NCBI RefSeq assembly: GCF_019008365.1
Contig: NZ_JAHHUL010000005.1
Span: forward strand, 62,001-126,000
From: Phosphitispora fastidiosa
GTDB taxonomy: Bacteria > Bacillota > Thermincolia > Thermincolales > UBA2595
DNA: 64,000 nucleotides
Direction: 5' to 3'
This document shows, piece after piece, positions 45,755-64,000 of this stretch; position 1 is the first letter of the stretch; every line of letters starts with the position of its first letter. The notes below the pieces were generated by a model. It saw only the letters and a program-made list of their open reading frames with translations. It was not told the DNA's origin and searched no databases. The translations under genes were made by a program, and so were the position numbers.

Positions 45755-46129
45755 TTAGTCATCCAAAGGTCGTACTTCTTCTGTCAAACTATAAGGAATA
45801 AGCTCATTAGGTCTTGTCTTTATATAAGCTGCTTCACTATGCATATACGCCACAACCTCGTCTGTGTTTTTGGTTCTAAAAAAGTTGGCAACTCGTTGTA
45901 GAATATTTAACTCATCAAGTGAAAATGACGAAATATTAATTTCCTGATTAGGGTGAATTTTGTAACCAACGTAATCGTTAATATATTCTTCCTCTACTTT
46001 AATTGACGGCAATGAGAGAATTTCATTATATCCCAATGGAACGGCTCCCATTGGCAAATGTTGATACACTAGTCCTGTCATAGATTTACCGTGCCCTTTA
46101 AAATTCAGGACATCAGAATACCATTCCAA
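45755..46129 (-). pseudogene. Truncated Panacea/SocA-like (DUF4065) antitoxin-type gene
   Basis: The 124-residue frame contains WYSDVLNFKGHGKSMTGL and VYQHLPMGAVPLGYNEIL, the central motif of Panacea/DUF4065 proteins, which act as antitoxins or as accessory chaperone-like domains of toxin-antitoxin pairs. The first 30-40 residues of the domain are missing: a stop codon lies immediately upstream in frame and only a TTG with no ribosome binding site could start it. No toxin gene is adjacent. It is best read as a decayed remnant. Confidence 0.6.
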
Positions 46130-46177
46130 TTACCTGCATCTTCGACACAAAATTATATATTATCTTCCACCTTCACT

Positions 46178-46912
46178 CTACAAACGGTCTACGGCGCTCA
46201 TCAGCCCATGTATCAGCGCCTGAGGCCTGGGCGGGCAGCCGGGAATATAAACGTCTACCGGCAAAATATTATTCACTCCGCCTGAACTGGCGTAACTCTT
46301 GCCGCAAATCCCCCCGCTGCAGGCACACGTACCTACAGCCACCACCAACTTAGGGGCAGGCGCTGCCTTAAAGGTTTTCCGCACAGCAATTTCAAGATTT
46401 CTGGTGACCACACCGGTAACCATTAAAATATCGGCATGCCTGGGTGAGGCCGCGAAATTGAAACCAAGGCGCTGGATATCGTAAACAGGTCCGGTCAAAG
46501 CCCCCATTTCCCAATCACAGGCGTTGCATGAACCTGAATCAAGGTGGCGGATATGTACAGAGCCGCCAAATATTTTGCTGATTTTTTCCCTGCATACTTT
46601 TTCTGTCAGTTCATAGGTTGTTCCTAAGGAGACAGCGCCACCGGCACAGGCATCCTGGCAGTAGCCACAGAAAATACATTTTTTAGGATCAATTGACCAG
46701 TAACCTGCCAAGTCGTTTAGCTTAGTTTCGCCGGTGTCATTTAGCTTAATAGCTCCGGTTGGGCACTTTTCAGCACATTTACCACATTTAAGACAGCTGT
46801 TCTCCTGCCATTCCGGAAGCCCTCTAAAGCCCTGTGGAGCAAAATCCTTTTCTTCAGGGTATCCGGTGGTGATCACCCCGGTCTGAAAACTTTTTCGAAA
46901 AATCCTTAGCAT
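46178..46912 (-). CDS. Fused ferredoxin and small subunit of group 4 [NiFe]-hydrogenase (HyfH-HyfI)
   Basis: A 244-residue cytosolic-side subunit. Residues 36-95 form a two-cluster ferredoxin domain with CLKCGKCAEKC (C40, C43, C46, C50) and CIFCGYCQDAC (C79, C82, C85, C89). Residues 110-244 form the NuoB/HyfI-like small subunit, whose proximal 4Fe-4S cluster would be held by C129, C132, C196 and C226. In E. coli Hyf and Hyc these are separate polypeptides. It should relay electrons between ferredoxin or another donor and the nickel-iron site of the large subunit. It is the last gene of the operon, 11 bp after the large subunit gene. Confidence 0.85.
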   Translation of the reverse strand: MLRIFRKSFQTGVITTGYPEEKDFAPQGFRGLPEWQENSCLKCGKCAEKCPTGAIKLNDTGETKLNDLAGYWSIDPKKCIFCGYCQDACAGGAVSLGTTYELTEKVCREKISKIFGGSVHIRHLDSGSCNACDWEMGALTGPVYDIQRLGFNFAASPRHADILMVTGVVTRNLEIAVRKTFKAAPAPKLVVAVGTCACSGGICGKSYASSGGVNNILPVDVYIPGCPPRPQALIHGLMSAVDRL

Positions 46913-46923
46913 GTATTTCCCCC

Positions 46924-48537: not shown

Positions 48538-48539
48538 GA

Positions 48540-50015: not shown

Positions 50016-50677
50016 CCCCGTAAATTTTTTAGATTTTCTGTATCGATGGTGTCAAAGCTCCGGTTTATCCTGAAAGCCAGGATTCCCATGATTAAAACTC
50101 CAATCAGGACATCCAGGAATATCCCCAGTTCAACAACCAAAGGCATTCCATGGGTGGTCCCCACTCCGGCTAAAAAAATACCGTTTTCCATTATAATCAA
50201 GCCCATTATCTGCATTACAGCCAATTTGCGGGTAATCATAACAAATAATCCTATCAGAATCAAAGATATTGCCGCCGGCAGGGCTTCACTAATAATACCT
50301 GCATTTGGGCCCATGATTCTGCCTGTAACCGAATACGCTATAATTATCAAACCGGCACAGATGACAAACGACATTTTTACATTTATGTATGATTTTACTT
50401 CCCTGCAGGCCACCACCCTGCCTACCACCTTACGTAAGATATACGGAATGATTACTGCCTTAACAACTACTGTCAACAAAGCGGCTATGTAAATCTCTTT
50501 ATTACCGGTAGCCCAACCCAGTGTTGCCGTTACCCCTGCCAACAAAACAGCCTGAGCGACGGCAACCTTGATAGCCGTATCCAGCCTCCGCCCTCCAACA
50601 ACCATAAACGATGTTGCTATGGTAAAGGTAATTAGTAAATTCATTACAACTTGATAAACATTAACATCAGCCATCAT
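50012..50677 (-). CDS. Membrane subunit of hydrogenase (HyfE type)
   Basis: A 221-residue hydrophobic protein with about six membrane helices, homologous in pattern to HyfE: an N-terminal helix, TATLGWATG, then helices with PYILRKVVG, and the NuoK-like end with GLIIMENGIFLAGVG near residue 160. NuoK-like subunits carry conserved Glu residues in proton translocation; E162 in MENG is the likely one. The start overlaps the stop of the next upstream subunit by one base. Confidence 0.85.
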   Translation of the reverse strand: MMADVNVYQVVMNLLITFTIATSFMVVGGRRLDTAIKVAVAQAVLLAGVTATLGWATGNKEIYIAALLTVVVKAVIIPYILRKVVGRVVACREVKSYINVKMSFVICAGLIIIAYSVTGRIMGPNAGIISEALPAAISLILIGLFVMITRKLAVMQIMGLIIMENGIFLAGVGTTHGMPLVVELGIFLDVLIGVLIMGILAFRINRSFDTIDTENLKNLRG

Positions 50678-51627
50678 CAGCTACCCCCAAACAGGAACTT
50701 GGAAATAAGACCTAAAAATGCCAGCAGGAAAGATCCCATGAGAAGCTCAGGAACTTTAAACAGCCTCATTTTAGTAAAGGATGTTTCTATGACCGCAATT
50801 GTTAACCCAATTAACAACACTTTGCCTAAATAGGCCAGTAATGCAATTGCCAGCGCACCAATACCGGTTCCGGCAGCAATGCCCCACGGGAAAAAAAGGT
50901 TCGCCAAAAGAGTAAATATCAGCAGTTGTTTTACAGAGGCTCCCAAGGTCAGGATAGCCAGCGGCTTACCGGAGTACTCCAGCAGCATTCCTTCATGGAT
51001 CATGGTCAGCTCAAGATGGGTATCCGGATTATCGACCGGAATACGCCCCGTTTCAGCCAAAGCTACAATATAAATCGCCCCAAAAGTCAGGATGTGGGCC
51101 GGCGTAAAAGCTGCAAGTCCGGCATTGTTAACACCGGAGATGATTCCGGTAAGATTTGTGGTGCCTCCATTAATTGCCATGGTAAACAGAGAAAGCATCA
51201 GCGCCGGTTCAGCAACCGACGAAACAGCCATTTCCCGGCTGCTGGCCATGCCTCCAAAGGCGCTTCCGGCATCCAGTCCGGCCAGGGTAAGAAAAAAACG
51301 TCCCAGAGCGAACAAATAAATTACCAAAATAGCATCACCCGTATAACTTAGCAAACCTGATGTAGATATTGTTGGCATCAGCATAGCCGCTGCCAGCAGT
51401 GCGCCAAAGTATATGTAAGGGGTTACCCTGAAAATCCAGGATGCATGTTCCGATATCACCGATTCCTTTTGCATGAACTTGTATAAATCAAGGTACGGCT
51501 GAAAAATACCCGGTCCCCTGCGAGTCTGAAAAAACGCCTTGAATTTCATAATTATTCCGGAAACGAGCGGGGCTGCCAGGACAATTATGATCACCTGAAG
51601 CAGACTCGCGGCCAAAGCCTCTGTCAT
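50677..51627 (-). CDS. Membrane-anchor subunit of hydrogenase (HyfC/NuoH type)
   Basis: A 316-residue membrane protein with about eight helices, of the NuoH/HyfC/HycD family. Conserved pieces are KFKAFFQTRRGPGIFQPYLDLYK, the loop that contacts the soluble arm, and ETGRIPVDNPDTHLELTMIHEGMLLEYSG, which contains the essential acidic residues. It anchors the hydrophilic part to the membrane and forms the ion or quinone-side channel. It is followed by hyfE with a one-base overlap and preceded by hyfB by 11 bp. Confidence 0.92.
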   Translation of the reverse strand: MTEALAASLLQVIIIVLAAPLVSGIIMKFKAFFQTRRGPGIFQPYLDLYKFMQKESVISEHASWIFRVTPYIYFGALLAAAMLMPTISTSGLLSYTGDAILVIYLFALGRFFLTLAGLDAGSAFGGMASSREMAVSSVAEPALMLSLFTMAINGGTTNLTGIISGVNNAGLAAFTPAHILTFGAIYIVALAETGRIPVDNPDTHLELTMIHEGMLLEYSGKPLAILTLGASVKQLLIFTLLANLFFPWGIAAGTGIGALAIALLAYLGKVLLIGLTIAVIETSFTKMRLFKVPELLMGSFLLAFLGLISKFLFGGS

Positions 51628-51638
51628 TGGATTTCCCC

Positions 51639-53675
51639 CTATCTGGCAAAAATAAGTAAGGTTACCAGCGTCACAAAAATATACGCCAAATATAAATGGA
51701 TACTCCCTGATTGCAATACCCTGATTTTATCCGAAACCTTTATTAGAGTTCGGGTTACCGGACTATAAATGGTGTCTTCAAACACAGGTTTAATTGACGC
51801 CTTATATTTTATAGCGCTGGTGAAATACGGCTCCTGACTGTATTCTTTCTGAATTTCACGCCTCGGCTGAAATATTTTGCGGAAGATAATCCGAATAGGT
51901 TTGGAAAAAGAAGTTGCACTATATTCCATTTTGGAAGAAAGATTCATGCCACAGTTCCAGGTTTCGTCTACCCTTACTGAACCACCCTTGCCGATGGCCC
52001 GGAACACTAAGAATATCAATAAGGTCGCCGCAGCCAAAACAATCAGCAAACTCAGGGGAGAAATCCCGGTTTGAGGTTCCAGTACCGGTAATACATTAAT
52101 CCAGTGATACCCGCCCATGAGAGGCAGTGTTTCGACTCCCAGCAAGGATTTTGTAACAGGACTTAAAAGGCTGATAATTAATATAGGGCCGACCCCAAAA
52201 ACGAAACAAAGCAGAGCCAAAAGTCCCATCCCCAGCCTCATACTGACAGGAACTTCCCTGGCGTTTTCCGCATTAGCGCTCCTTGGCAGGGCCAAAAACT
52301 GAATTCCAAACGCTTTCACAAAACACGTCGCCGCTAATGCTCCCGTTAAGGCAAGGGCGGCCCCGCAAAGCGGTCCTAAAATATTCAAGGAGGGGGACAG
52401 GCTTCCTGAACCTAGCATTAACAGTGATTGAAATGTAAGCCATTCACTGACAAAACCGTTAAACGGGGGTATCGCTGATATGGATATGGAGCCAATCAAA
52501 AAGAAGAAACCTGTCCAGGGCATCCTCTTCAAGAGACCTCCCAGTTTTTCTATATCTCTGGTGCCTGTTGCAAAATGAATCGAACCGGCGCCAAGAAAAA
52601 GCAGCCCTTTAAATATGGCATGATTAAATACGTGAAATAATGCGGCCGTCAAACCTACCATGGCCATTTTATTATCACCATTGCCAATAAAAACAAGGGA
52701 TGCTCCAAGGCCGATTAATATAATGCCAATGTTTTCAACACTGTGATAAGCAAGTAAACGTTTAATATCGTGTTCCATCAGAGCATACATTACGCCTAAC
52801 AATGCGGAGATACTGCCTATGACCAGGATAAGCACCCCCCACCAAACAGAACCGCCGCCCAGTATCTCAATGACTACCTTTACAAAACCGTAAATTGCTG
52901 TTTTTATCATTACCCCTGACATGATTGCCGACACATTGCTTGGCGCAGCCGGGTGAGCTCTGGGCAGCCATATATGCAGTGGCACTATCCCGGCTTTGGT
53001 GCCGAAACCAAGGGTTACCAGGAGAAATATTATTGTTTTAAGCCGCAGCGGAAGAGCACGGCCTGCTTCAGCGTACTGTAAAAAGCTGAAACTGCCGGCC
53101 TCCTTATATAGCAGCATAAAGGCCGCAATAATAAACAATGTGCCAATATGGGTCATCACTAAATAAATGAACCCGGCTTTTCTTACACTTAAATTACAGT
53201 GATCATAAACCACCAGAAAATAAGATGAAAGTGACATTAACTCCCAGAAAAACACGAACATCAAGGCATTGTCACTGGCCACCAGGGCAATCATGGAAAA
53301 TATAAACAGATTATATAATAATCCCAAAAAACCGATATTATGTTTTCCAATATATTCGGTAACATAGCCATAAGAAAAGACAGATACTGAGAGACAAATT
53401 ACAGATATCACAGTAATAAAGAAAGCCGCCAGGGGACCAATCGTAAATCCCAGCCCTACACTTAACAATGACCAGGGCAGCATAAAATGCGCCGGTGTCC
53501 CGGTTGATAACACCATTATGCCAAGAGCCAATCCGCTTAGGGCGGCAATATTGGAGCAGGTGAATCCCAGAATAATGCTTAATTTAGGCTTTTTTTGACA
53601 TGCAAAAGAAAACAGGCCCCCTAGTAACGGGAGGCCCATCGTGATTAAAAACAGGCTTCGGGTTAGACTGGACAT
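51639..53675 (-). CDS. Membrane antiporter-like subunit of hydrogenase (HyfB type, NuoL-like)
   Basis: A 678-residue subunit with about 15-16 helices and a C-terminal extension. FGTKAGIVPLHIWLPRAHPAAPSNVSAIMSG is the conserved NuoL/M helix pair with essential Lys and His, and EHDIKRLLAYHSVENIGII is the second. The last 130 residues include a soluble, Cys-containing stretch (DETWNCGMNLS), as seen in HyfB. It is the first gene of the operon; the promoter is about 50 bp upstream and the start follows a modest GAGGCG site. Confidence 0.92.
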   Translation of the reverse strand: MSSLTRSLFLITMGLPLLGGLFSFACQKKPKLSIILGFTCSNIAALSGLALGIMVLSTGTPAHFMLPWSLLSVGLGFTIGPLAAFFITVISVICLSVSVFSYGYVTEYIGKHNIGFLGLLYNLFIFSMIALVASDNALMFVFFWELMSLSSYFLVVYDHCNLSVRKAGFIYLVMTHIGTLFIIAAFMLLYKEAGSFSFLQYAEAGRALPLRLKTIIFLLVTLGFGTKAGIVPLHIWLPRAHPAAPSNVSAIMSGVMIKTAIYGFVKVVIEILGGGSVWWGVLILVIGSISALLGVMYALMEHDIKRLLAYHSVENIGIILIGLGASLVFIGNGDNKMAMVGLTAALFHVFNHAIFKGLLFLGAGSIHFATGTRDIEKLGGLLKRMPWTGFFFLIGSISISAIPPFNGFVSEWLTFQSLLMLGSGSLSPSLNILGPLCGAALALTGALAATCFVKAFGIQFLALPRSANAENAREVPVSMRLGMGLLALLCFVFGVGPILIISLLSPVTKSLLGVETLPLMGGYHWINVLPVLEPQTGISPLSLLIVLAAATLLIFLVFRAIGKGGSVRVDETWNCGMNLSSKMEYSATSFSKPIRIIFRKIFQPRREIQKEYSQEPYFTSAIKYKASIKPVFEDTIYSPVTRTLIKVSDKIRVLQSGSIHLYLAYIFVTLVTLLIFAR

Positions 53676-53722
53676 CTTATTTACGCCTCTTATTCATTTT
53701 GAATTTCAGAAAACATGCTTTT

Positions 53723-53750
53723 ATTTTATCACTTTCGCCACTGTTATCAA
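53723..53750 (-). promoter_or_regulatory. SigmaA-like promoter for the hydrogenase operon
   Basis: On the minus strand TTGATA (53745-53750) and TAAAAT (53723-53728) are separated by 16 bp. A transcript would begin about 40 nt before the hyfB start codon. Of the 53676-54012 gap the rest is AT-rich. Confidence 0.5.
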
Positions 53751-53756
53751 AACAGC

Positions 53757-53782
53757 ATACTTGTCTAAATTTTGACAAGTAT
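53757..53782. promoter_or_regulatory. Palindrome just upstream of the hydrogenase promoter
   Basis: ATACTTGTC and GACAAGTAT, separated by eight bases, form a perfect 9-bp inverted repeat that ends next to the -35 hexamer. The position, about -50 to -65 from the predicted start, fits an activator site; the protein is unknown, though the AraC-like gene lies 250 bp away. Confidence 0.5.
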
Positions 53783-53883
53783 AGTCATGCTATCCGATAT
53801 TAGTATATTATGACCGATTTCCTCGGCTTTTTATAAAATATACTCATCATCTCTTGATATCCTATATGTCGATATTAAAACAC

Positions 53884-53915
53884 TAAAAAAACGGCGAGCA
53901 ATACAGACCGCCGTT
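53884..53915 (-). terminator. Terminator after the AraC-like gene
   Basis: On the minus strand AACGGCG pairs with CGCCGTT around a 12-base loop and TTTTTT follows. It lies about 100 bp after the AraC stop codon. Confidence 0.7.
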
Positions 53916-54012
53916 CGTCGTATAAGCCGCAGCAAGCGTTGGGGTGCTCCTTAGCGTTGCCCAATTTATGCTACAATAATATTATCGACTACTTTTAGGA
54001 TGATTATTCCAT

Positions 54013-54702
54013 TTACACTATAGGATATTCACACCTAGTAACCCTGGACTTGAGGTTTCTGTACTCTGCCGGAGGCATTCCGATTTTATTCTTAAATATT
54101 CTTCCAAAATATTTTTCATCTGGATATCCCACTTCCCAAGCCACTTGTTTTACCGGTATTGTTATATTAGAAGCCAATAATATTTTAGCTTTTTCTAATC
54201 TAAAATCAATCAAATATTGTTTTATACTTTTACCTGTCGTCTTTTTAAAAACCTTACTCAAGTAATACATGTTAAAGTTAACTTCATTAGATATTTCTTC
54301 CAAACTAATTTCCTTTGAATAATTCTTTTCAATGTAATTAGTAATAAAATTCACTATTTTTGAATGTTTGCAAATCGGCTCAATCAGTTTAATATAATTT
54401 TTAAATATATCACTCCTTATCCAACTACAAAATTCAATTTTATTGTTAAATTCGTGGAATTTACGCAAAAATCTAAAGTCTTCCCTAATAACATCACCAC
54501 AGTAGGGCAAAATATCTTTAATTTCAGACGAAATCCCCATTATTAATTCTACAGTTCTAATCACCACAGCTTCAGTGTTGCAAACGTTGGAACTTATTTC
54601 TGAACAAAAAAGTTCCAATAAATCGTCAGCACCCTCTAGATCTCTAAGACGAATCTTTTCTAAAAGTTGCCGTTCGCTGACTTTAACCAACTCTAGACTC
54701 AT
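54013..54702 (-). CDS. AraC family transcriptional regulator
   Basis: About 229 residues. The C-terminal 100 residues form a double helix-turn-helix AraC/XylS domain: ISLEEISNEVNFNMYYLSKVFKKTTGKSIKQYL and, for the second helix, VAWEVGYPDEKYFGRIFKNKIGMPPAEYR. The N-terminal 120 residues are helical with no recognised ligand domain. AraC members usually activate nearby promoters; the hydrogenase operon lies just downstream on the same strand with a palindrome before its promoter. The start at 54702 follows GGGAGGT at a ten-base distance; an upstream frame to 54795 has no ribosome binding site. Its base composition is more AT-rich than its neighbours. Confidence 0.85.
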   Translation of the reverse strand: MSLELVKVSERQLLEKIRLRDLEGADDLLELFCSEISSNVCNTEAVVIRTVELIMGISSEIKDILPYCGDVIREDFRFLRKFHEFNNKIEFCSWIRSDIFKNYIKLIEPICKHSKIVNFITNYIEKNYSKEISLEEISNEVNFNMYYLSKVFKKTTGKSIKQYLIDFRLEKAKILLASNITIPVKQVAWEVGYPDEKYFGRIFKNKIGMPPAEYRNLKSRVTRCEYPIV

Positions 54703-54836
54703 TGTTGAAGATACCTCCCGTTTATGCCTATTTTGTTTGAAAGTAACTGATTGGAAGAACTTCGGTTTCAAATGGAATATAGCCCCATTCGTCACAGACC
54801 AGCAAATTCAGCTTACCTTGAAAGGTCATGAAATTT

Positions 54837-55094
54837 TCAAAGCCAGCCCCTCTTGGGTACAAATTCCAGCGGCATTTGGCGTTCCGGTTTCGGATATAGG
54901 ATAATTATTTCTCTTACTACATGATAACCTTTTGGGGCGAAGTTTGAAATATTTTGTCCTTCAATAAACAAAAATGATGCTTTAGCGGTTGTAATGTTTC
55001 CTGTATTGCTATCTAAATCGAATTTCCGCTTAGGTGCAATTTTACAGGTAATCTGGCCACCTTGAAGATCTGAAAAGATATATCCTGATCCCAT
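54837..55094 (-). CDS. Short hypothetical protein, doubtful gene
   Basis: An 85-residue frame not recognised as any family. It contains SDLQGGQITCKIAPKRKFDLD and a beta-rich GYHVVREIIILYPKP, without signal or membrane segment. No clear ribosome binding site precedes the ATG at 55094. It may be the tail of a lost gene, like other debris in this region, or a chance frame. Confidence 0.3.
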   Translation of the reverse strand: MGSGYIFSDLQGGQITCKIAPKRKFDLDSNTGNITTAKASFLFIEGQNISNFAPKGYHVVREIIILYPKPERQMPLEFVPKRGWL

Positions 55095-55745
55095 CGCTCA
55101 TTTCAAGCAGGTTGCAAAACAGCAGCAACTAAACGTTGATTTATAACTTAAATAGTATATTCAGCTTGTTAATTTTTAACCGGTTCTTTTTCCCTTCTGT
55201 TGCTGCTAACCCAAGGTGTCCAGCAAAAGACGGCTTATGCTGTCCATAAACTGACGGAAAAAGTGTCCAATCAGGCCCGGAATCGGGAGAGCTAAGAAAG
55301 CTCTCTCTCCTTAAATACCCCTAAGCTTTCGGAAGGTATAATCGGCGGGGGTTGAAGAAAAAGAAAAGTCTTTATGAAAAAGCTAAATCGTTATATCGGC
55401 TTTTTCATAAAGACTTTTGAGAATTTACCAAAAATATATAGGAATAAGACCGAATCTTTGCTGTTCTATAAGTCGTCACAACCTAAAACAGAAAGCAGGT
55501 CTTGTTCCTTATGGTCAGAATAGCAAAAAACAAGCAAAACACGGTGGCAAGCTGACGGAATTTGCGAAAACGATAAACAGAGAACAAACCACCAACCGTC
55601 CCCATACGTTAAGGATGATTGTATAAGAATCAGGTTTACTCGTAGAAATGGCAATCAGGGTAGACTTAGTTATCCATGCTCAAATAACTACTAAGAGTCA
55701 CCTGTTTTTTATTCAAAAAGCTTGCAAAGTCTATTGACAGCACAC
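55095..55745. other. 650-bp gene-poor stretch with IS21-like end and long hairpin
   Basis: No convincing gene was seen. Three TGTCC motifs at 55217, 55241 and 55264 recur at 23-24 bp steps, each followed by short A/G-rich sequence, a pattern like the repeated terminal sequences of IS21-family elements; no transposase is present. A perfect 20-bp inverted repeat lies at 55364-55418. The next 200 bases hold a short open frame that is not recognised. Confidence 0.4.
55364..55418. repeat. Perfect 20-bp inverted repeat with 15-base loop
   Basis: AAAAGTCTTTATGAAAAAGC at 55364-55383 is exactly complementary to 55399-55418. It contains T-rich and A-rich ends and could be a terminator or a remnant of an insertion sequence end. 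No gene stops close to it. Confidence 0.7.
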
Positions 55746-56138
55746 CTATAAAAGTTTTCGGCCTGCTTTTTTCTGCATATGCAAACGACTTAATACCCCC
55801 AATAATTTTGGCAGATTTAATGGCTGATTTAAAACATACGATGCTCCGAGCATTTTGGCCATTCTAAAGAGATTTATGTCCGGAGCGTGACCCCGCACGT
55901 TACCTAAGATAATTATTTGGATGCCGGGCCATTTAGACTTAATATCCATAATTACTTCTAGTCCATCTTTTTCAGGCATAAACAAAGCAACAATAACAAA
56001 GTCGACGGTTTCTGTACATCTCCGAAGCCCTTCTTTACCATTTTCGGCAACTAGAACTTCATGCCCGCAATTTATTAAGAAGTCCGAAATTAACTTTCTA
56101 ACTCCGGTATTTGATTCGATTACTACAATTTGAAACAT
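55746..56138 (-). CDS. Degenerate response-regulator receiver domain (pseudo-receiver)
   Basis: A 130-residue stand-alone receiver fold with typical spacing, VVIESN at the start, VALFMPEKDG in the middle and SYVLNQPLNLP near the end. The phosphorylation set is lost: the phosphoacceptor Asp is Ala51, the Thr/Ser is Gly79 and the Lys is Gln105. At the acidic pocket only Glu8 is retained (Ser9 in place of the second acid). It therefore cannot be phosphorylated in the usual way and probably works by protein interaction or has lost function. There is no output domain. The upstream winged-helix gene is 39 bp away on the same strand, so the two may act together. Confidence 0.8.
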   Translation of the reverse strand: MFQIVVIESNTGVRKLISDFLINCGHEVLVAENGKEGLRRCTETVDFVIVALFMPEKDGLEVIMDIKSKWPGIQIIILGNVRGHAPDINLFRMAKMLGASYVLNQPLNLPKLLGVLSRLHMQKKAGRKLL

Positions 56139-56177
56139 AATAAATTCCTCACTTTTTCAAAAAGGATAGGCCTCTAC

Positions 56178-56612
56178 TTAAAGGCTTGTATCTTTTTTCT
56201 TACTGTCATTTTGTGACTTCAAATAATATTTAGATGAATGCATGGATACATTTACCACTAAATTGGCTTTGGTTAGTTCCGTAAGCAATCCTTTAACCAA
56301 TTCACGAGAAATTCCAAAATGATCTGCTATTTCCTCGCCCGAATGTGGCGCTTTAGAGAGCAACCAGCAGATTGCTTTTTTTGCTCCTCTCTTTTTGAAA
56401 TTTCCGATCTTAGAAATATCGTGAATATCTATTGGAATATAATTGGTTTTATTTTGTGGCAGTGAAAATAAATTACTAGAAGTTATTATCTCTTGCATTT
56501 TTCCCATCTTCCAACCTTCCAAGATTTTATTAAAGAGAGTTGATAGTTTCACCTTTTGCACACTTTCCCAAAGGATTTCTGTAAGGTCCTTGGTCTTAAC
56601 TGTTTCAACCAC
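56178..56612 (-). CDS. Winged-helix DNA-binding protein, probably a regulator
   Basis: A 144-residue protein. The C-terminal half has a winged-helix pattern: KRGAKKAICWLLSKAPHSGEEIADHFGISRELVKGLL as helices 1-3 and then a beta wing with ANLVVNVSMHSSKYYL. The N-terminal half (MVETVKTKDLTEILWES) is helical without recognised ligand site. The start is a GTG after AAGG. It lies upstream of the degenerate receiver and downstream of the first TauE/SafE gene on the same strand, so it may regulate the methyltransferase island. Confidence 0.65.
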   Translation of the reverse strand: MVETVKTKDLTEILWESVQKVKLSTLFNKILEGWKMGKMQEIITSSNLFSLPQNKTNYIPIDIHDISKIGNFKKRGAKKAICWLLSKAPHSGEEIADHFGISRELVKGLLTELTKANLVVNVSMHSSKYYLKSQNDSKKKDTSL

Positions 56613-56744
56613 ATCTTTGCCTTGGTATTGTCTTCAAGGTTTGTTCCTTCCCCTAATCCCAGCTCATTATTTATTGGCATTATATTCTAATATAATAATG
56701 TTAGTGGTATAAAAACTTCCTTTTTATACCTTGATACATAGAAT

Positions 56745-57575
56745 TCATCTAGCCACCATTTCAACTATCAATTTCGCTGAAATTAGAAGTAAAATAACCC
56801 CATAGATACTTTTTACCCACGCTGGCTTAGCTTTTTTAGCCATAAAATTACCGCCTAACTGGGACCCAATTGCGACCGCTACTACCAGCCACAACATTAG
56901 CCAAGTAAACACCTGACCCCCGGCCATGTGGCCCAAGTATCCAGAAAACGAAGAAAAGGTAACTACAAAAGCTGTGGTTGCTGCTGCCTGTTTAGTAGGA
57001 TACCCCATAGTCATCAGGACCGGAGCAACAATAAATCCGCCCCCTACCCCCAAAAGCCCTCCCAGGAAACCAATACCCGCTCCCAAAGCGCCTCCAAAAA
57101 GCATTCTCTTTCTTATTGGCATCAAAATTTCTGTCCCAGTTTCATCCAACGGAGGCCTTTGCTGCAAGGTTTCAACGGCTACATCGGTAGCCACCAAATA
57201 TTTTTTTTGCCAAAAAGGCCTTAATACATCATTGAGTATCTTAAGCGCAGCAGCTAACACAGCGACAGTGAAGAAAATAATTAAGAACTTATTTGACACA
57301 AATTTTGTAACATAAGCACCTACAGGTGCCAGCAGCATTGCCATCAGTCCCATCGGCCAGGAACCCTGATAATCTACCAACCTAGCCCGGTGGTAAGGAA
57401 TAAGTACTAGTAAGGTGTTCAAGCCGTTCAAAAGTAACCCCAATGGAATCGCCATCTGTTTTAAATCCAGGCCAGCCCACTTCAGCATGGGAACATAAAC
57501 CATGCCACCACCTAGGCCAAGCATGGCAAACACGAACGATGTCACTAGAACAATTATAAATAGAACGGCGCTCAT
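56745..57575 (-). CDS. TauE/SafE family permease, first copy
   Basis: A 276-residue permease with about eight membrane helices. The repeated TauE signature is seen as LGLGGGMVYVPML near the N-terminus and FLGGLLGVGGGFIVAPVLM in the second half. The family moves small anions, known cases including sulfite, sulfoacetate and other organosulfonates or acids. It follows the UroD-type methyltransferase gene by 67 bp on the same strand. A second, different TauE/SafE gene is at 60.9 kb, so the island has one at each side. The anion here is unknown. Confidence 0.85.
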   Translation of the reverse strand: MSAVLFIIVLVTSFVFAMLGLGGGMVYVPMLKWAGLDLKQMAIPLGLLLNGLNTLLVLIPYHRARLVDYQGSWPMGLMAMLLAPVGAYVTKFVSNKFLIIFFTVAVLAAALKILNDVLRPFWQKKYLVATDVAVETLQQRPPLDETGTEILMPIRKRMLFGGALGAGIGFLGGLLGVGGGFIVAPVLMTMGYPTKQAAATTAFVVTFSSFSGYLGHMAGGQVFTWLMLWLVVAVAIGSQLGGNFMAKKAKPAWVKSIYGVILLLISAKLIVEMVAR

Positions 57576-57642
57576 TCGCTTTGCACCCTTTCCTCCTCTG
57601 GTTTTGCGTCAAAATAAGCTTCATTAAGTATACTTATTAATC

Positions 57643-58755
57643 CTAGCCCTTACTTGCGAGTGGATAGCTGCCGTATTTATGAGTAGCATCAACCCAGGCC
57701 TTAAAGTGTTTATTAGATGTATCCGGCAAAATCTGACAGCTTGGAGCCATGAAATAACCCAGTCCCGGCGTACCAATAGTTTCAATGGCTTCCTTTACAT
57801 GTTGATCAATTTTTTCTACAGGACCAGAAACGATCGGATTAGCGCCATGGACGATAATACCAGCAGGTACTTTCAATTTCTCTATTATATTTTCCTTAAT
57901 CCATTGGGGGTCATGTTTCTCATCTAGGTGTATTCCCGCTACCCCCGCTTCTTTAACCAGTTTTTCCAGGAGCTGGTACGATTTAGGACCTTTAAAATTG
58001 CCATGAATGTGCAGATAAGTTTTCTGTCCAAATTCTTTTTTTACCATCGCTACAGTATCAGCGATGTAAGGCAGAATGAAACGCTCGCCCATCTTAGGAG
58101 ACATTAGATCGGTTCCAAAATGATCTCCCAGATAGCAAAAACTGTTACAGCCGGCTTCATATTGAGCTCTAATCCAATCCTTGCAAAACTCGGTAGCTAC
58201 ACGGCACATCTCATCTACCAATTCAGGCACTTCCATGGCATCAATGGTCAAATCTTCCAATTTACGAAACAAAATGTTGGCAGCAGTAATTCCTGTGTAA
58301 TAGCTGGCAAAAATCGGGGTATGGTCGCCTACTTCTTTAGACACGATCTTGATAGACTCAAGCGCTCCCCTGCAGCGTCCATCTTTCAAAGGGTCAAGAG
58401 GAAGTTTTTTCTTAACTTCCGACCAGTCCTCTCTTTTCTCAACCGGTGGTTTCTTAATACTCACACTCACCCCAAATTTTTCTGGGATTTCCAGAACTCC
58501 TCCCAGCACCGGAACACCAAAGCCATGGTCGGTATAGGTGCCAAATGCCAGGTCATAATCCACTTCTTTCAGAGAAGTTAAGATGGCGTCCGCTACTTTT
58601 TCTCCGTCCATGTCGGTTTGAGTTGTTATGTCGCTTAGCTTCCAGCCCTTGGCATAGATGGCCTGGGCCATAATGCGCGGGAATACTGGCATCACATCAG
58701 GTTCTTGAAATGAATCCACCGCAGCCAATCGTTCTTTTTTAGTCATCGTTTTCAT
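57643..58755 (-). CDS. UroD-fold (MtaA/CmuA-type) corrinoid methyltransferase
   Basis: A 370-residue member of the uroporphyrinogen decarboxylase superfamily that is not HemE: it lacks the MRQAGRYLPEY substrate motif. It has the zinc-site pattern of methyltransferases, YLHIHGN (His-x-His) near residue 250 and the later Cys in APSCQILPD near 345. Relatives such as MtaA and CmuA move methyl groups between a substrate or coenzyme and a corrinoid protein. It is the upstream partner of the first TauE/SafE gene and the downstream neighbour of a corrinoid-cap protein. The methyl donor cannot be deduced. Confidence 0.82.
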   Translation of the reverse strand: MKTMTKKERLAAVDSFQEPDVMPVFPRIMAQAIYAKGWKLSDITTQTDMDGEKVADAILTSLKEVDYDLAFGTYTDHGFGVPVLGGVLEIPEKFGVSVSIKKPPVEKREDWSEVKKKLPLDPLKDGRCRGALESIKIVSKEVGDHTPIFASYYTGITAANILFRKLEDLTIDAMEVPELVDEMCRVATEFCKDWIRAQYEAGCNSFCYLGDHFGTDLMSPKMGERFILPYIADTVAMVKKEFGQKTYLHIHGNFKGPKSYQLLEKLVKEAGVAGIHLDEKHDPQWIKENIIEKLKVPAGIIVHGANPIVSGPVEKIDQHVKEAIETIGTPGLGYFMAPSCQILPDTSNKHFKAWVDATHKYGSYPLASKG

Positions 58756-58782
58756 TATCGTAAAACCCCCTTCGAATTTAAA

Positions 58783-59238
58783 TTAAGACTTTTTTGTTGA
58801 ATCCGCCTGTTTCTTACACGGAAGCCCAACCTGCGCCCGCAGTCCTTCCGAACACTCATCAATCAACAGTAACAGATTTTCGCCTTTAAGACCTTCCGCT
58901 TTCGCCACAAACTCAACCAAGTACTCTCCCAACACGAAAAGTTCGCCGTCTCCCTCCCAAACGGCAATATCTTCCGCAATCGGTTCATCTTGGTATTCCG
59001 CTTGTAAAGCTTGTAATACCGGGTCCAGAGCTTTCATAGACCCCATTACCTCAGGAAAGCCATATTCCTCATCCTGCATAAGCATGCCCACCTCCCTTAA
59101 GGCAGGTACCAATGCTTCACTCATTATTTCTTCACTAGAAATATCCCCTGCCAGAGCCTCACGAAAAATTTCTGCCGTATTAATGTTCCCTTTAACAACA
59201 GCTTCCTTTAATTGCTCTAATATTTCCTTTGTGTTCAT
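58783..59238 (-). CDS. Corrinoid-protein cap domain without the B12-binding domain
   Basis: A 151-residue protein. Residues 1-80 match the helical cap domain of methyltransferase corrinoid proteins (EQLKEAVVKGNINTAEIFREAL, ALVPALREVGMLMQDEEYGFPEVMGSMKAL). The rest, which should hold the DxHxxG and Rossmann fold, is instead an acidic stretch (ELFVLGEYLVEFVAKAEGLKG) with no B12 motif. The reading frame is intact with a GGAGG site, and neighbours are 27 and 52 bp away, so it looks like a real gene. It could act as an assembly factor, a partner for the corrinoid protein or a decoy. Nothing else like it is known to me. Confidence 0.6.
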   Translation of the reverse strand: MNTKEILEQLKEAVVKGNINTAEIFREALAGDISSEEIMSEALVPALREVGMLMQDEEYGFPEVMGSMKALDPVLQALQAEYQDEPIAEDIAVWEGDGELFVLGEYLVEFVAKAEGLKGENLLLLIDECSEGLRAQVGLPCKKQADSTKKS

Positions 59239-59290
59239 GCCAATGCCTCCTTTATTCTAGATTCACCGTCGTTACTGCAAAGCCTTTCTC

Positions 59291-60157
59291 CTATCCATTT
59301 TTCTTACTTTTTCGGTAAGCAGACAACCAGTTCCTTGCATTTTCGTCCGTACCCTTACACAGGTCCGCAGCAAGGATGGTCTTTTTCACTTGTTCTTCAA
59401 GTGGATTTGTAATCGGACAAGTCAGTCCGCTGTATATGGCCATTGCCATAAAAGTAGAATTAATTGAAGGACGATCAGGCAGGCCAAACGAAATATTACT
59501 GGCACCCAACGTAATATTTACGCCAAACTGCTTGATAATCTCTTCAATAGACTTCATTACTATTAAGCCTGCATCCTCTTCAGTTCCCATTGACAAGGCC
59601 AACGGGTCAATTATTATATTCTCAACAGAAATACCTTCTATTTCCGCCCGTTTAATAATTTTTTCGGCTAGAAACAGCCGCTTATCCACAGTTTTGGGAA
59701 TTCCTTCGTTGTCCAGCGTTAATCCAATTACCGCCGCACCATGTTCGGCAATGAGGGGCAGAATATTGCGCAGCTTGTCTTCCTCTGCATTAACGGAATT
59801 AACCAGGGCTTTTCCGTCATAAACTTTCAGGGCCGCCTCTAAAGCTTTAAAACTAGCGGTGTCTATGCAGAGAGGAACATCAGTTACTTCCCTAATGACT
59901 TTTATCAAGTCTACTAACAAAACAGCTTCGTCCACACCTGGAACTCCGGCATTAACATCCAGAATTGCTGCACCTGCTTCAACCTGCGCCACTGCGTCCT
60001 GCCGAACTGTGTCAAAGTTGCCCTCTTTCAGTTCCGTCTGTAGCCTCTTTCGCCCAGTGGGATTTATCCGTTCGCCTATTATAGTTGTTGGCATGCTCCG
60101 TGCAATTGTTACTTCGCGCGATGCCGAACTTATCGTTGTTTTAGCCTCTTGTGCCAA
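59291..60157 (-). CDS. Methyltetrahydrofolate:corrinoid methyltransferase (MtrH/AcsE-like)
   Basis: A 288-residue pterin-binding TIM-barrel protein of the DHPS-like family. IIGERINPTGRKRL near residue 26 is the signature of the methyl-pterin type. Conserved acidic and Asn residues are seen in ILDVNAGVPG, VPLCIDTASF, NSVNAEE, IDPLALSMG and LGASNISFGLP. It should transfer the methyl group from the corrinoid protein to tetrahydrofolate (or reverse), linking the island to the Wood-Ljungdahl methyl branch. The start is TTG after GGGAAG. It is 47 bp after the corrinoid protein gene. Confidence 0.88.
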   Translation of the reverse strand: MAQEAKTTISSASREVTIARSMPTTIIGERINPTGRKRLQTELKEGNFDTVRQDAVAQVEAGAAILDVNAGVPGVDEAVLLVDLIKVIREVTDVPLCIDTASFKALEAALKVYDGKALVNSVNAEEDKLRNILPLIAEHGAAVIGLTLDNEGIPKTVDKRLFLAEKIIKRAEIEGISVENIIIDPLALSMGTEEDAGLIVMKSIEEIIKQFGVNITLGASNISFGLPDRPSINSTFMAMAIYSGLTCPITNPLEEQVKKTILAADLCKGTDENARNWLSAYRKSKKNG

Positions 60158-60204
60158 GTTAATTCACTTCCCTTTCTTTTAATTAAATAGTTTCTGAACA
60201 GCCA

Positions 60205-60840
60205 TTAAGCTAGTAGCTTTTTGGACAGCGTAACAGCACTTGCCGCGTCTTTTGCAGTACCGTCAGCTCCGATTTCCTCAGCAAATTCTTCTGTTATAGG
60301 TGCACCACCAATAATTATTTTGACTCGATCACGAAGTCCCGCTTTTTCAATAGCCTGGATAGTTTTGGGCATTTCATCCAAGACCGGCGTAATCAGCGCA
60401 GACATTCCAAGAATCACTGTTCCTTCAGAAGAAGCAACCGCTTCCAAAAACTTATCACTGGTAACGGATATTCCCAAATCTTGCACAGAAAAGCCTGATC
60501 CCTTTAACAGCATAGCCACCATGTTTTTGCCAATATCGTGAATATCCGCTTCTACAGTACCTAGGATTACATGCCCCAATGTCTGGCTTTCCTCGGCCGC
60601 CAAAAGTGGTTCTAATAACTCCACACCCGCCCTCATTGCTTTGGCAGAAAGTAAAACATCCGGAATAAAATACTCTTCTTCGGCCATCAATTCCCCCACA
60701 TGGTTCATCCCGGGAATCATTAAATCAGATAAAATCGCCTGTGCACCCATGCCATCGTCCAAGGCCTCTTGCACCAGTTTTACAACTTCAGCTACTTTTC
60801 CATCGATTATTGCCTGTGTTAAAGGCTTAAATTCACTCAT
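60205..60840 (-). CDS. Methyltransferase corrinoid protein
   Basis: A 211-residue protein with an N-terminal cap domain (residues 1-85, ALDDGMGAQAILSDLMIPGMNHVGELMAEEEYFIPD) and a C-terminal cobalamin-binding Rossmann domain. The lower-ligand His is in EADIHDIGKN near residue 105; the usual SALIT and IIIGGAP loops for the B12 tail follow. It would carry the methyl group between the substrate methyltransferase and the MtrH-like enzyme. It is the first gene of the core island, upstream of the MtrH-like gene, and itself follows the second TauE/SafE gene by 84 bp. Confidence 0.93.
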   Translation of the reverse strand: MSEFKPLTQAIIDGKVAEVVKLVQEALDDGMGAQAILSDLMIPGMNHVGELMAEEEYFIPDVLLSAKAMRAGVELLEPLLAAEESQTLGHVILGTVEADIHDIGKNMVAMLLKGSGFSVQDLGISVTSDKFLEAVASSEGTVILGMSALITPVLDEMPKTIQAIEKAGLRDRVKIIIGGAPITEEFAEEIGADGTAKDAASAVTLSKKLLA

Positions 60841-60924
60841 GATGTCCTCCCTTATTAATTATTCTTGTTGAAGTTTTTATATTTCCAGAAAGCATGATCC
60901 GTTTTCAACCGTACGTTTTTTTAC

Positions 60925-61728
60925 TTACGTGAGAATGGTAACTAATTTGTATGCTGTCATTATAACTATTAAAATCCCAAAACCCTTCTTTAGTTTTTGA
61001 CCAGAAACGTAAACACTGGTAATTCTTGCACCAATAAAGGAGCCTATCGCACCAAGTACTAACAATACCGCCGTTAAACGGAAGTCCCACTGAGCCGTGC
61101 TCAAATGAGGAATTAGCGCCGAAAAAGAAGGTGGACATACTGCAAACGCATTTATCCCGGCTGCCATCTTTGGCTCAAAACCCAGGATAATTAGCGTAGG
61201 CATTAGTAAAAACCCCGGACCTACTCCCAAAAGACCACTGAGGATAGAAATAGGAATAGCTAACATAAGTGCCAACTTAAAGCTTCTGTTTTCATCGAAT
61301 TCTTCGCTTTTTTCAAGTACTGGTGAATCAGACGTAGCAGCAATCATTGACTTAGCATCTTTTCTATCTACCTTGCTTTTTACAGGTTTAAAGATCCTAT
61401 ATACCAAAAAGGTTACGGAAGCAAGGTACACAACCCAAATATACGTTGGGGAAATAAATTGAGCCAAATATGACCCAACCGGAGCTGCTATTGTAGCTAC
61501 AGCAGCCAGTCCAAGTGCTTTTTTCCAAACAATATAACCGCTTTTGGCAAACCCGAATACCGCAAACAACGCCGTTATCCCATTCAACAATAAGCTTAAT
61601 GGTTGAACCTGGTGTACAAGATCCGGAAGAAAAAACGATAAAAATGGAATTGCGGCAAAGGCTACTCCCAGTCCGAGCATCCCTGAAATAACCGCAAGCA
61701 CAAACAGTCCAATCGAAATAACGCCCAT
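60925..61728 (-). CDS. TauE/SafE family permease, second copy
   Basis: A 267-residue permease with about eight membrane helices and the TauE pattern MLGLGVAFAAIPFL in the first half and GLLGVGPGFLLMPTLI in the second. It differs from the first copy in length and in the central soluble loop (KPVKSKVDRKDAKSMIAATSDSP), so the two are not a recent duplication. The start is the ATG at 61728 with GGAGG seven bases upstream. It may import the substrate or export a product anion of the methyl-transfer island. Confidence 0.85.
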   Translation of the reverse strand: MGVISIGLFVLAVISGMLGLGVAFAAIPFLSFFLPDLVHQVQPLSLLLNGITALFAVFGFAKSGYIVWKKALGLAAVATIAAPVGSYLAQFISPTYIWVVYLASVTFLVYRIFKPVKSKVDRKDAKSMIAATSDSPVLEKSEEFDENRSFKLALMLAIPISILSGLLGVGPGFLLMPTLIILGFEPKMAAGINAFAVCPPSFSALIPHLSTAQWDFRLTAVLLVLGAIGSFIGARITSVYVSGQKLKKGFGILIVIMTAYKLVTILT

Positions 61729-61871
61729 CAAATTACCTCCTAACAGTATTTTATAAATACCTTACCTTATTTCCTCACCTCCATTTTCATAATTCTTCGC
61801 CTTCCTTAATATCAATTTGTAAGCTGATAAAATGACTGGCTTCTTTTATAAATACTGTATTTCTGAACAAT

Positions 61872-62294
61872 TTACCCCCGAACTTTCTGGATGAAAGTAG
61901 GATATTCTTGTTTTGTTTTATTCGGCATGCAGTGCAGTTTTTTAAAAACAGATTGGCTGAGGCCTTCCTCCAGCAGCATTTCAAGCCTATTTTTTTCGTA
62001 GCCAAAGACTATAATATTACATATTAAAGCAACCTGTTCGTATGATTTGTCAAACCAAGCCGGACCAGATCTAGTGGTAATATCGGGTAAACTGGTCAGG
62101 GACATTTGAACGTATTCCCCACCAGCTTCAGCCATAATCTTCAGGTGTCCAATAATTTTGCCCCTGTAATTCAGGTGTTGACCCAAGTGATTTAGAATCT
62201 TATTCATCTCGTCAGCAATTATTGTTCCGGTAATTGGTTTATCAAAAATACAGCTTAAGCTTCGGCTGACAACTTTGGCCCCTTCATCACTCAT
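61872..62294 (-). CDS. Unknown protein coupled to the CobW-like GTPase
   Basis: A 140-residue protein without recognised domain, signal or membrane segment. It has SRSLSCIFDKPITGTIIADEM near the N-terminus, HLKIMAEAGGEYVQMSLT in the middle and conserved-looking His and Cys residues (KKLHCMPNK). Its ATG overlaps the CobW-like stop codon (ATGA), so the two are translated together and probably interact. A metal- or cofactor-receiving partner for the GTPase would fit, but nothing in the sequence proves it. Confidence 0.6.
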   Translation of the reverse strand: MSDEGAKVVSRSLSCIFDKPITGTIIADEMNKILNHLGQHLNYRGKIIGHLKIMAEAGGEYVQMSLTSLPDITTRSGPAWFDKSYEQVALICNIIVFGYEKNRLEMLLEEGLSQSVFKKLHCMPNKTKQEYPTFIQKVRG

Positions 62295-62884
62295 AGCTGT
62301 ACCAACCCCCTCAGCTTCACTTCGTCTATGCCATTATCAGCGTTTAATTCGAAGATAGCTGCATTTTGATTTATTTGCTCCAAATCATTTTTTAATGCCC
62401 GAATAGTATCTTCGCTGGCTAAATCCACCTTATTAATAATAATCACGTCTGCAGCCTCAATTTGTGAAACTACAAGGGGCTCGACTACCTCCATTATTGC
62501 CGTCCACCTGGATACATCTGTTAACACAATAGTTTTAAGTGCCTCGAAGCTCCTGCACTGATTCTGCAATAAAGTAACTATTTTCCTGGGAACAGCTAAT
62601 CCCGTAGTTTCAATAATCAGCCAGTCAGGATTTACAGTTGTATGAATTTCATCAATAGCAGCGACAAGTTCGCCCGTAATCTGGCAGCATACACACCCGG
62701 CAAATACACCCTTCACTTTTAAGCCCTGTTGAGCTATAACCTGATCATCAATACCTGTTTGCCCGATTTCATTTTCAATAATGGCAACAGTTTCATTTCT
62801 GGTTTCTATCAGGTACTTAGCCAATTGTAGTATCACTGAAGTTTTACCAGAGCCCAGAAATCCTCCAAAAAGCAAAATATCCAT
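62291..62884 (-). CDS. CobW/HypB/UreG-type G3E GTPase
   Basis: A 197-residue P-loop GTPase. Walker A is FGGFLGSGKTS (residues 6-16), the CxCC metal-binding motif is GCVCCQ near 63-68, switch/Walker B is IIETTGLAVP and the base-specificity motif is NKVD. The family delivers metals or acts in cofactor insertion (cobalt in CobW, nickel in HypB and UreG). It is short: the C-terminal CobW domain of longer members is absent. Next to corrinoid methyltransferases it could load or reactivate a corrinoid protein, but a metal role is only inferred. AAGGAG precedes the ATG. Confidence 0.85.
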   Translation of the reverse strand: MDILLFGGFLGSGKTSVILQLAKYLIETRNETVAIIENEIGQTGIDDQVIAQQGLKVKGVFAGCVCCQITGELVAAIDEIHTTVNPDWLIIETTGLAVPRKIVTLLQNQCRSFEALKTIVLTDVSRWTAIMEVVEPLVVSQIEAADVIIINKVDLASEDTIRALKNDLEQINQNAAIFELNADNGIDEVKLRGLVQL

Positions 62885-62936
62885 AAAACCAACTCCTTAA
62901 ATACAGCTCAAATTTCCCTGGGTATGACCAAACAGC

Positions 62937-62962
62937 AAAAAAAGATAGGCCCTGGTAGGGCC
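62937..62962 (-). terminator. Terminator after the MBL-fold gene
   Basis: On the minus strand GGCCC-TACCA-GGGCC is followed by TATC and TTTTTTT. It separates the metallo-hydrolase transcript from the CobW-like gene, so the latter starts its own unit. Confidence 0.85.
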
Positions 62963-63050
62963 AAATTAAAAGAAGATTAGAGTTAGTGCCAAAACTAAAC
63001 CCTTAAAGTTCTCAAAGCACCCATATAAAGCATTTATTCAATGAATGCTT

Positions 63051-63809
63051 CTATACTTCTATTACGGTAAAATCATCAGGAACAATTACTTCACCTGCAA
63101 AATGTTCTTCTATTAATTTTTTGAAATCATCTTTTCTCTCTTCATATTCGGTAGGCCAGTGTACAACTGCCAAACGTTTTACGCCAGCCGCAGTGGCAGC
63201 ACGACCTAACTCTGCTGGGGAGATATGAAAATCATGAGGTTCAGTGACTACTACCGTACTGATAAATAAGTCGGCCCCTTGTGCCAGCTTAATAACTTCG
63301 TCTGTATATGAGGATTCCCCATTATAAAAAATTGACTTGCCGTTTCTCGTTATTCGGTAAGCGTGAGCTTCCGAGGGATGTTCACCCTTTACCGTTTGAA
63401 TATCATCAAACGCTTCTGAATTCCCTAATTCCCTGAATATTAACTGATATCCCCTTTGCTCATCGTTTGCCACCGGCAGTTCACACAGACTCATTAACCC
63501 TCGTGTTGCCTTTTCAATCCCCTGGGGACCAATGATTTCCAAAGGTTCTTTTCTATTTCTGACGTTCATCATGTCAAAAAGAACATGAACGATACCGATA
63601 AAGTGGTCCGAATGTTTATGAGAAATCATAATCCTCTTAATATTATTCAAATCCACTCCAAATGCATTAATATTTCTTAATGCACCATCTCCTGTTTCCA
63701 ACAAATAATCATCATCAATCAACATTACCAACTGACAACGTTTTGCAGTTACATTTAGACCTAATCCCCCAGGCACAAGTCCTGCCGTTCCCAAAAAATT
63801 TATTTTCAT
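63051..63809 (-). CDS. MBL-fold metallo-hydrolase (RNase Z-like fold)
   Basis: A 252-residue protein of the metallo-beta-lactamase superfamily. The metal motif HKHSDH is at residues 64-69, a further His/Asp set is in HPSEAHAY and in PHDFHISPAE, and the final His is in VHWPTEYEER. The opening FLGTAG is typical of RNase Z-like members, but the length is short and the tRNA-specific exosite loop is not visible, so a small-molecule or phosphonate-type hydrolase is as likely. It starts after TTGGAGG and follows an incomplete upstream gene by 24 bp, apparently in one operon. Confidence 0.8.
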   Translation of the reverse strand: MKINFLGTAGLVPGGLGLNVTAKRCQLVMLIDDDYLLETGDGALRNINAFGVDLNNIKRIMISHKHSDHFIGIVHVLFDMMNVRNRKEPLEIIGPQGIEKATRGLMSLCELPVANDEQRGYQLIFRELGNSEAFDDIQTVKGEHPSEAHAYRITRNGKSIFYNGESSYTDEVIKLAQGADLFISTVVVTEPHDFHISPAELGRAATAAGVKRLAVVHWPTEYEERKDDFKKLIEEHFAGEVIVPDDFTVIEV

Positions 63810-63833
63810 TCTTTAACCTCCAATTACAATAAA

Positions 63834-64000
63834 TTACGACTGTTTGAATTGTTTGTAGACACTATCCACTACAGTTTCGATACAACAGGCACAGGTTTCC
63901 ATCCATTCGCCCAATTCAATTTGCTCCTGAATCTCTTCGGAATACTTTTCATATTGCATCGGATCAAAACCCAGAATCTGTTGACAGTATGTAGTACCAA
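63834..64000 (-). CDS. C-terminal end of an unrecognised protein (5' end beyond window)
   Basis: Only the last 54 residues are inside the window. They read TTYCQQILGFDPMQYEKYSE, then further acidic helix, and ETCACCIETVVDSVYK before the stop. The CACC cluster and acidic helix are notable. The family is not recognised from this much. It is upstream of, and probably co-transcribed with, the MBL-fold gene. Confidence 0.6.
   Translation of the reverse strand, partial: GTTYCQQILGFDPMQYEKYSEEIQEQIELGEWMETCACCIETVVDSVYKQFKQS

Follow-up and report, generated by a model that had tools for sequence, protein, structure and literature searches.

Which methylated compound supplies the corrinoid gene island near the end of this 64,000-nucleotide stretch of the genome of Phosphitispora fastidiosa, a bacterium of anoxic environments? 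The stretch, called the window throughout, is C5:62001-126000 of a draft genome (G000) of 4.09 Mb in 239 contigs, with a listed completeness of 99.96%. The island (island A) encodes a UroD-superfamily methyltransferase (UroD_A), a corrinoid protein (C_A) and a pterin-binding methyltransferase, placed between two TauE/SafE permeases. It very probably carries out corrinoid methyl transfer to folate, and we tentatively propose that it is a three-component corrinoid system whose methyl donor is a small methylated oxyanion of sulfur, with methanesulfonate as the leading candidate. Support for the methyl-transfer anatomy is good, and we infer the substrate from the neighboring transport genes only. 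The kind of system is ordinary, namely corrinoid methyl transfer; the methyltransferase subfamily and the set of sulfur transport genes are unusual.

The methyl-transfer genes of island A

A sequence-only reading had described six genes, all on one strand, of the UroD, corrinoid, pterin-binding (MtrH/AcsE-like), cap-only and TauE families. The open reading frames and the Pfam matches place all six, contiguous and on the minus strand, where it had put them, and each family scores above its Pfam cut-off. In minus-strand order the genes are as follows (aa, amino acids).

60925..61731 (-), TauE1, TauE/SafE (TSUP) permease, 268 aa, with an ATG at 61728, the end that the sequence-only reading had given the island; PF01925, 120.8 bits
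60205..60840 (-), C_A, corrinoid protein, 211 aa, with a cap and a B12-binding domain; PF02607 and PF02310
59291..60157 (-), pterin-binding methyltransferase of the AcsE/MetH folate-domain type, proposed MT2, 288 aa; PF00809, 110.6 bits
58783..59238 (-), cap-only corrinoid-like protein, 151 aa; PF02607 alone
57643..58755 (-), UroD_A, UroD-superfamily methyltransferase, proposed MT1, 370 aa; PF01208, 124.9 bits
56745..57575 (-), TauE2, TauE/SafE permease, 276 aa; PF01925, 138.9 bits

From TauE1 to TauE2 the intergenic gaps are 84, 47, 52, 27 and 67 base pairs (bp), and this shortness makes a single transcription unit plausible. Promoter and terminator scans remained at chance level (41 versus 40.8, and 19 versus 16.3) and carry no weight.

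The genome encodes the parts of a three-component system, that is a UroD MT1, a corrinoid protein with the DxHxxG motif, a pterin-binding MT2 and an activase. The motif is present as DIHDIG both in C_A and in C_B, its counterpart in a second island described below. MT2 scores 300.7 bits with NF005719 (methyl-H4F:corrinoid/iron-sulfur protein methyltransferase), above the cut-off of 259, and its solved relatives are MetH (1q7m and 4o0q) and an AcsE-type enzyme (2e7f). It is of the PF00809 type, where the scanned protein of a methyltransferase cluster on contig C17 is a PF02007 MtrH instead. No reductive activase is found among the recognized genes of the locus. A RACo-type protein is encoded on contig C17 (L014:7908-9851; PF14574, 322.4 bits), and it could serve C_A and C_B.

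In alignments the cap-only protein keeps its cap, carries ELFVLG in place of DxHxxG and is missing most of the B12 domain, so that the usual base-off binding of cobalamin is not expected. Within the fetched stretches its best relative besides itself is C_B (42.5 bits). It is perhaps a duplicate in decay, perhaps a helper subunit. The gene stays in frame inside the operon despite loss of the cofactor-binding domain.

UroD-family matches number 17 in the genome, comprising HemE, UroD_A, its paralog UroD_B from the second island, one broken fragment and 13 others; all except the fragment were aligned. UroD_A has His249-x-His251...Cys340, and UroD_B likewise has His-x-His...Cys, where every one of the 13 others has His-x-Cys...Cys. 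The pair is 17-24% identical to those 13 and has in common Arg27, which none of them possesses. A HMMER alignment with MtaA (4ay7) lays LHIHGN on LHICGN and APSCQ on APGCG. The UroD_A model was made from 15 sequences, with a predicted local distance difference test score (pLDDT) of 88.8 and a predicted template modeling score (pTM) of 0.90; an earlier one, built on two sequences, had a poor pLDDT of 49.1 and was not used. MtaA 4ay7 is its closest solved fold (Z 35.1, root-mean-square deviation (rmsd) 2.4, 331 aligned, 25% identity), tied with human UroD (Z 34.4, rmsd 2.6, 337 aligned). Judged from these alignments, the His-His-Cys site of UroD_A would bind a metal ion, probably zinc.

The fold and the aligned metal-ligand positions resemble those of the coenzyme M methyltransferases MtaA, MtbA and MtsA. 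The middle Cys ligand of those enzymes is, however, His in UroD_A and UroD_B, and the curated NCBIfam cut-offs are missed. UroD_A scores 62-89 bits against cut-offs of 235-600 for MtaA/MtbA/MtsA-type models (PRK06252, 89.1 of 244; TIGR01463, 84.8 of 235.4 bits).

According to Kountz and Balskus (PMC10418091; here and for all other articles cited, the accessible part of the text is meant), UroD enzymes with a His-Cys-Cys site act on S or Se. Carboxylate ligands favor oxygen, and O-methyltransferases have carboxylates or non-ligands (PMC10418091). UroD_A, with His249, His251 and Cys340, does not have the His-Cys-Cys site of UroD-type S-methyltransferases. In the O-demethylases of that article a carboxylate or non-coordinating residue stands in for one Cys, and in UroD_A it is a His that replaces one Cys. 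The His-His-Cys site appears to fit neither class: it departs from the soft His-Cys-Cys set and has no carboxylate.

An MT1 of UroD type, a small corrinoid protein and a pterin-binding MT2 that pass methyl to tetrahydrofolate are also found in the O-demethylases MtvABC, OdmABCD and VdmB and in CdmBCA (PMC13222342). This likeness favors a substrate that contains no sulfur, such as a haloalkane or a methoxylated or methylated carboxylate, in which case TauE would serve for the export of an organic acid or a different anion, and its name would mislead. UroD_A by itself gives no phmmer match to CdmB (9rui) at E<=0.001, and CdmB is matched only through the 15-row profile, which counts against such a substrate. 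CdmB 9rui is absent among the 50 entries listed in the fold comparison, which excludes nothing. Unlike these systems, the locus has the His-x-His...Cys site, a degenerate cap-only corrinoid protein, and neighbors of the TauE, YedE, SsuA-like and TusA-like kinds.

The two permeases that flank island A had been taken to be unrelated. They are 27% identical over 276 aligned columns (E 5e-27), and are therefore diverged members of one family. PF01925 (cut-off 32.6 bits) has five matches genome-wide, at four places, two of which flank island A; around the other two the fetched genome stretches contain no methyltransferase genes. By simple arithmetic, four genes placed randomly in 4.09 Mb would give about 0.015 pairs within 5 kb. 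Chance clustering of TauE genes at the island was rejected, given that two of the only four places in the genome are there. A sequence search found no solved TauE relative. Both proteins exceed the PF01925 cut-off and in this resemble the TSUP permeases for sulfite and organosulfonates; the transported ion is a prediction, and TauE1 and TauE2 may export sulfite.

A paralogous island and the genes between

A protein search within the same genome found a second island (island B), on the same minus strand as island A and 12.8 kb upstream of it, outside the window. Its methyltransferase UroD_B (C5:132417-133520) is 51% identical to UroD_A, and C_B is 58% identical to C_A. Thus while the six genes stand as first described, the extent given to the island does not, as the locus runs upstream past the window end into the paralogous methyltransferase island. 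Counted with the regulators, islands A and B span about 19 kb in a single stretch (C5:116-135 kb), and the two islands may work as one system. No folate methyltransferase is found among the recognized genes of island B; island A has one.

Immediately past C_B, after 3 bp, begins a gene for an SsuA-like substrate-binding protein, whose best solved relative is E. coli SsuA (2x26) and whose best model match is SsuA_fam. It belongs to a set of ATP-binding cassette (ABC) genes of the nitrate/sulfonate/taurine type that also includes two permeases and two ATPases; the SaoA, SaoP and SaoX transporter models match the set as well, below cut-off. Island B further encodes two half-length Sulf_transp (YedE-type) permeases (PF04143, 116.0 and 111.4 bits), for which YedE/FdhT models are the best match, below cut-off. 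Between the islands, from island B on, there are genes for a TusA-like, a thioredoxin-like and a C_GCAxxG-like protein, followed by the genes at the window end. The TusA-like protein scores 86.2 bits with PF01206 and has YedF as its best model, again below cut-off. Two related MT1s are in this way surrounded by four sulfur-linked kinds of gene, namely two TauE, two Sulf_transp, the SsuA-like ABC set and the TusA-like gene, and this combination argues for a sulfur oxyanion.

The same neighbors can be read as machinery for scavenging methyl-sulfur or methyl-selenium compounds as in type 1 mlp clusters, with UroD demethylation supplying S or Se through YedE and a YedF-like TusA protein. Those clusters likewise tie UroD methyltransferases and a corrinoid protein to sulfur and selenium genes, and they are linked to the use of methyl-selenium (PMC10418091). 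The permeases and the TusA-like protein have best models that point the same way, and so has a CobW-type protein at the window end, which best matches a model for a CobW-related selenoprotein, below cut-off. However, type 1 clusters have multiple Mlps, an activase and His-Cys-Cys sites (PMC10418091), whereas each island here has a single MT1 with a His-His-Cys site, no activase is recognized in the locus, and a folate methyltransferase is present that is absent from the type 1 clusters first described in that article. Moreover, the ABC and TauE genes speak for anions. We regard scavenging of this kind as decidedly unlikely.

The thioredoxin-like protein is of the MTH895/ArsE family (TIGR00412, 45 bits against a cut-off of 62), and such a protein could accompany corrinoid demethylation of methylarsenate that frees arsenic. 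No ars regulator, transporter or reductase was recognized among the scanned proteins of the locus, and a methylated arsenical is highly improbable.

The candidate methyl donor

In the scheme that we propose, the anion would enter through island B's SsuA-like ABC transporter. UroD_A and/or UroD_B would bind it at the His-His-Cys metal site and use it to methylate the Co(I) corrinoid of C_A or C_B. From the resulting methyl-Co(III), MT2 would pass the methyl group on to tetrahydrofolate and so into the acetyl-CoA pathway, presumably in that direction. Sulfite would leave through TauE1 or TauE2, or be handled by the TusA-, YedE- and thioredoxin-like proteins, and the corrinoid would be maintained in the Co(I) state by a reductive activase whose gene is outside the locus. 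We see an even balance for and against the donor being a methylated sulfur oxyanion, and methanesulfonate itself is a possible but uncertain choice. The full proposal of anaerobic methanesulfonate demethylation is more doubtful. It would involve a new His-His-Cys UroD subfamily and C-S cleavage by Co(I), with methyl-tetrahydrofolate going to the acetyl-CoA pathway and sulfite being exported.

The metabolic setting was examined in the whole genome. It has two acetyl-CoA synthase genes, which suggests an organism of the acetyl-CoA pathway. ATP-sulfurylase was not found at curated cut-offs. The only two siroheme proteins (PF01077; 326 and 242 aa) are closest to NirB-type models and fall far under the DsrA, DsrB and AsrC cut-offs. 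Released sulfite would therefore not be respired by these routes, and export is the simplest fate, if sulfite is produced.

The stretches around the 13 other UroD methyltransferases served as controls, and as fetched they contain no relatives of the TauE, TusA-like, thioredoxin-like or C_GCAxxG-like proteins or of the second YedE half. The ABC genes behave differently. Contig C17 has two near-duplicate clusters (L014, C17:44000-63999, and L015) with an MtaA-like UroD protein, a corrinoid protein and SsuA-like ABC genes, and one of the copies also has MtrH and RACo genes. The binding proteins of C17 match the profile with their N- and C-terminal halves swapped. This type of transporter is thus not specific to the His-x-His MT1s and proves no sulfonate by itself, and since the ABC genes alone are insufficient, it is the genes in combination that carry the sulfur reading. 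That SsuA-like ABC genes adjoin other methyltransferases of the genome is in keeping with the non-sulfur substrates raised above. Against these, it is hard to account without sulfur for the pairs of TauE and YedE genes and the TusA-like gene beside the only His-x-His pair of MT1s, and we consider a non-sulfur donor rather unlikely.

The proposal of methanesulfonate has several points against it. Methanesulfonate would have to release sulfite, a poor leaving group, and we know of no demethylation of this compound by Co(I). The substrates of TauE-family and NMT1-type proteins are varied. The binding protein scores 144.2 bits where SsuA_fam requires 163.5, and the two C17 clusters, whose UroD proteins are of the His-x-Cys...Cys kind, have SsuA-like ABC genes as well. 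Judging by the names of the models, YedE and TusA-like proteins occur in selenium metabolism too. Island B has no TauE gene and island A no ABC genes. Finally, our searches of other genomes (below) found no orthologous cluster, so relatives do not confirm the linkage. The accessible parts of PMC10199032 and PMC11022551 describe no reaction of methanesulfonate with a corrinoid, an absence that is weak as subscription journals were mostly outside the search.

The sequence-only reading had offered methylated sulfonates as candidates on the strength of the permeases. The SsuA-like ABC genes and two YedE genes of island B, with the adjoining TusA-like gene, strengthen that guess without proving it, given that unrelated methyltransferases on C17 have SsuA-like neighbors too and that we only infer the substrate. 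It had also named relatives with no linked TauE gene as evidence to the contrary, and island B is in part such a relative, its permeases being of other families.

A different sulfur oxyanion could use the same machinery, above all methyl sulfate (CH3-O-SO3-), with unusable sulfate being exported. The transporter evidence is the same as for methanesulfonate, and as a leaving group sulfate is far superior. As ATP-sulfurylase was not found, sulfate would be waste. By reasoning that follows PMC10418091, the greater hardness of the His-His-Cys site would also favor an oxygen ligand. Set against this, methyl sulfate is rarer in nature, TauE is named for sulfite rather than sulfate, and sulfur in reduced or intermediate form would be the better match for the TusA-like and YedE genes. 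We judge methyl sulfate unlikely.

Returning to methanesulfonate, the aerobic methanesulfonate genes of Filomicrobium (msmABCD and msmEFGH) are near a TauE/SafE gene and SoxCD (PMC4433239). That region (PMC4433239) and the present locus share nitrate/sulfonate/taurine-type ABC genes together with TauE/SafE, which is a helpful analogy and not homology of enzymes. Here corrinoid methyl transfer is proposed instead of oxygenation, and no msmABCD monooxygenase genes are among the recognized genes of the locus, the rest of the genome not having been searched for them.

Should the proposal be correct, anaerobes, including those that do not respire sulfite, would gain access to methanesulfonate. Methanesulfonate is a major end product of the atmospheric oxidation of dimethyl sulfide, and to our knowledge the characterized route for its catabolism needs oxygen. 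A new oxygen-independent use of a common natural compound would add cleavage of the sulfonate C-S bond to Co(I) chemistry and close a gap in the sulfur cycle. Even with another substrate, a His-His-Cys UroD subfamily linked with genes for sulfur transport offers a defined and testable target.

Distribution and genomic surroundings

We searched a sample of 398 genomes of the phylum, this genome included, rather than the whole phylum. In the 397 others there was no relative of UroD_A at E<=1e-40, of the UroD A+B profile at E<=1e-35 or of the binding protein at E<=1e-50. None of nine other genomes of the same class matched at 1e-60, and none of 17 from another class at 1e-25. A scan of genome contigs gave three loci at 24-25% identity, which are background UroD methyltransferases and contain nothing related to the TauE, MT2 or ABC proteins of the query set. 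Plasmids gave two records at 22-24% identity, and viral contigs none.

In a congener (G006) there is a stretch 97.5% identical to window positions 46126-53845, after which the island is missing and other genes follow, ABC-2 type transporter genes judging by their translations. An intact hydrogenase-4-like subunit gene, read from its translation, is on one side of the locus (window 51639-53675), and a scrambled and partly deleted remnant of that same gene is on the far side (L007:3400-4006, C5:137453-138040). The GC content of the locus is 36-45%, below most of the window. The locus looks like a lineage-specific insertion.

The remaining genes around island A in the window are the following, the first four upstream of the island and the last three downstream.

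63834..64000 (-), C_GCAxxG-like protein gene, continuing beyond the window (L006:11834-12238)
63051..63809 (-), metallo-beta-lactamase-fold protein, 252 aa; PF12706, 57.6 bits
62291..62884 (-), CobW-type GTPase, 197 aa; PF02492, 141.3 bits
61872..62294 (-), protein of 140 aa without a family, overlapping the CobW gene by 4 bases
56178..56612 (-), small helix-turn-helix protein, possible regulator, 144 aa; weak helix-turn-helix matches below cut-off
55746..56138 (-), single-domain response regulator, membership uncertain; PF00072, 46.5 bits
54013..54795 (-), AraC-family regulator, membership uncertain; PF12833, 67.9 bits

CobW-type genes also stand beside several other methyltransferases in the genome. 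Repeats within 53700-64000 appear to be chance pairs except for one hairpin at 55364-55418, an intergenic, perfect 20-bp inverted repeat with a loop of 15 nucleotides.

Two further genes were observed in passing. One encodes a split-Soret cytochrome c (L007:1449-2312), which scores 112.5 bits with NF047622, under the cut-off, and whose Tat-like leader is in another, overlapping frame. Similar short reading frames flank it at L007 1158-1358 and 2578-2709. Within the window, positions 33132-40367 encode a protein of 2411 aa with many CxxCH heme motifs, beside genes that from their translations are like those of cytochrome c maturation.

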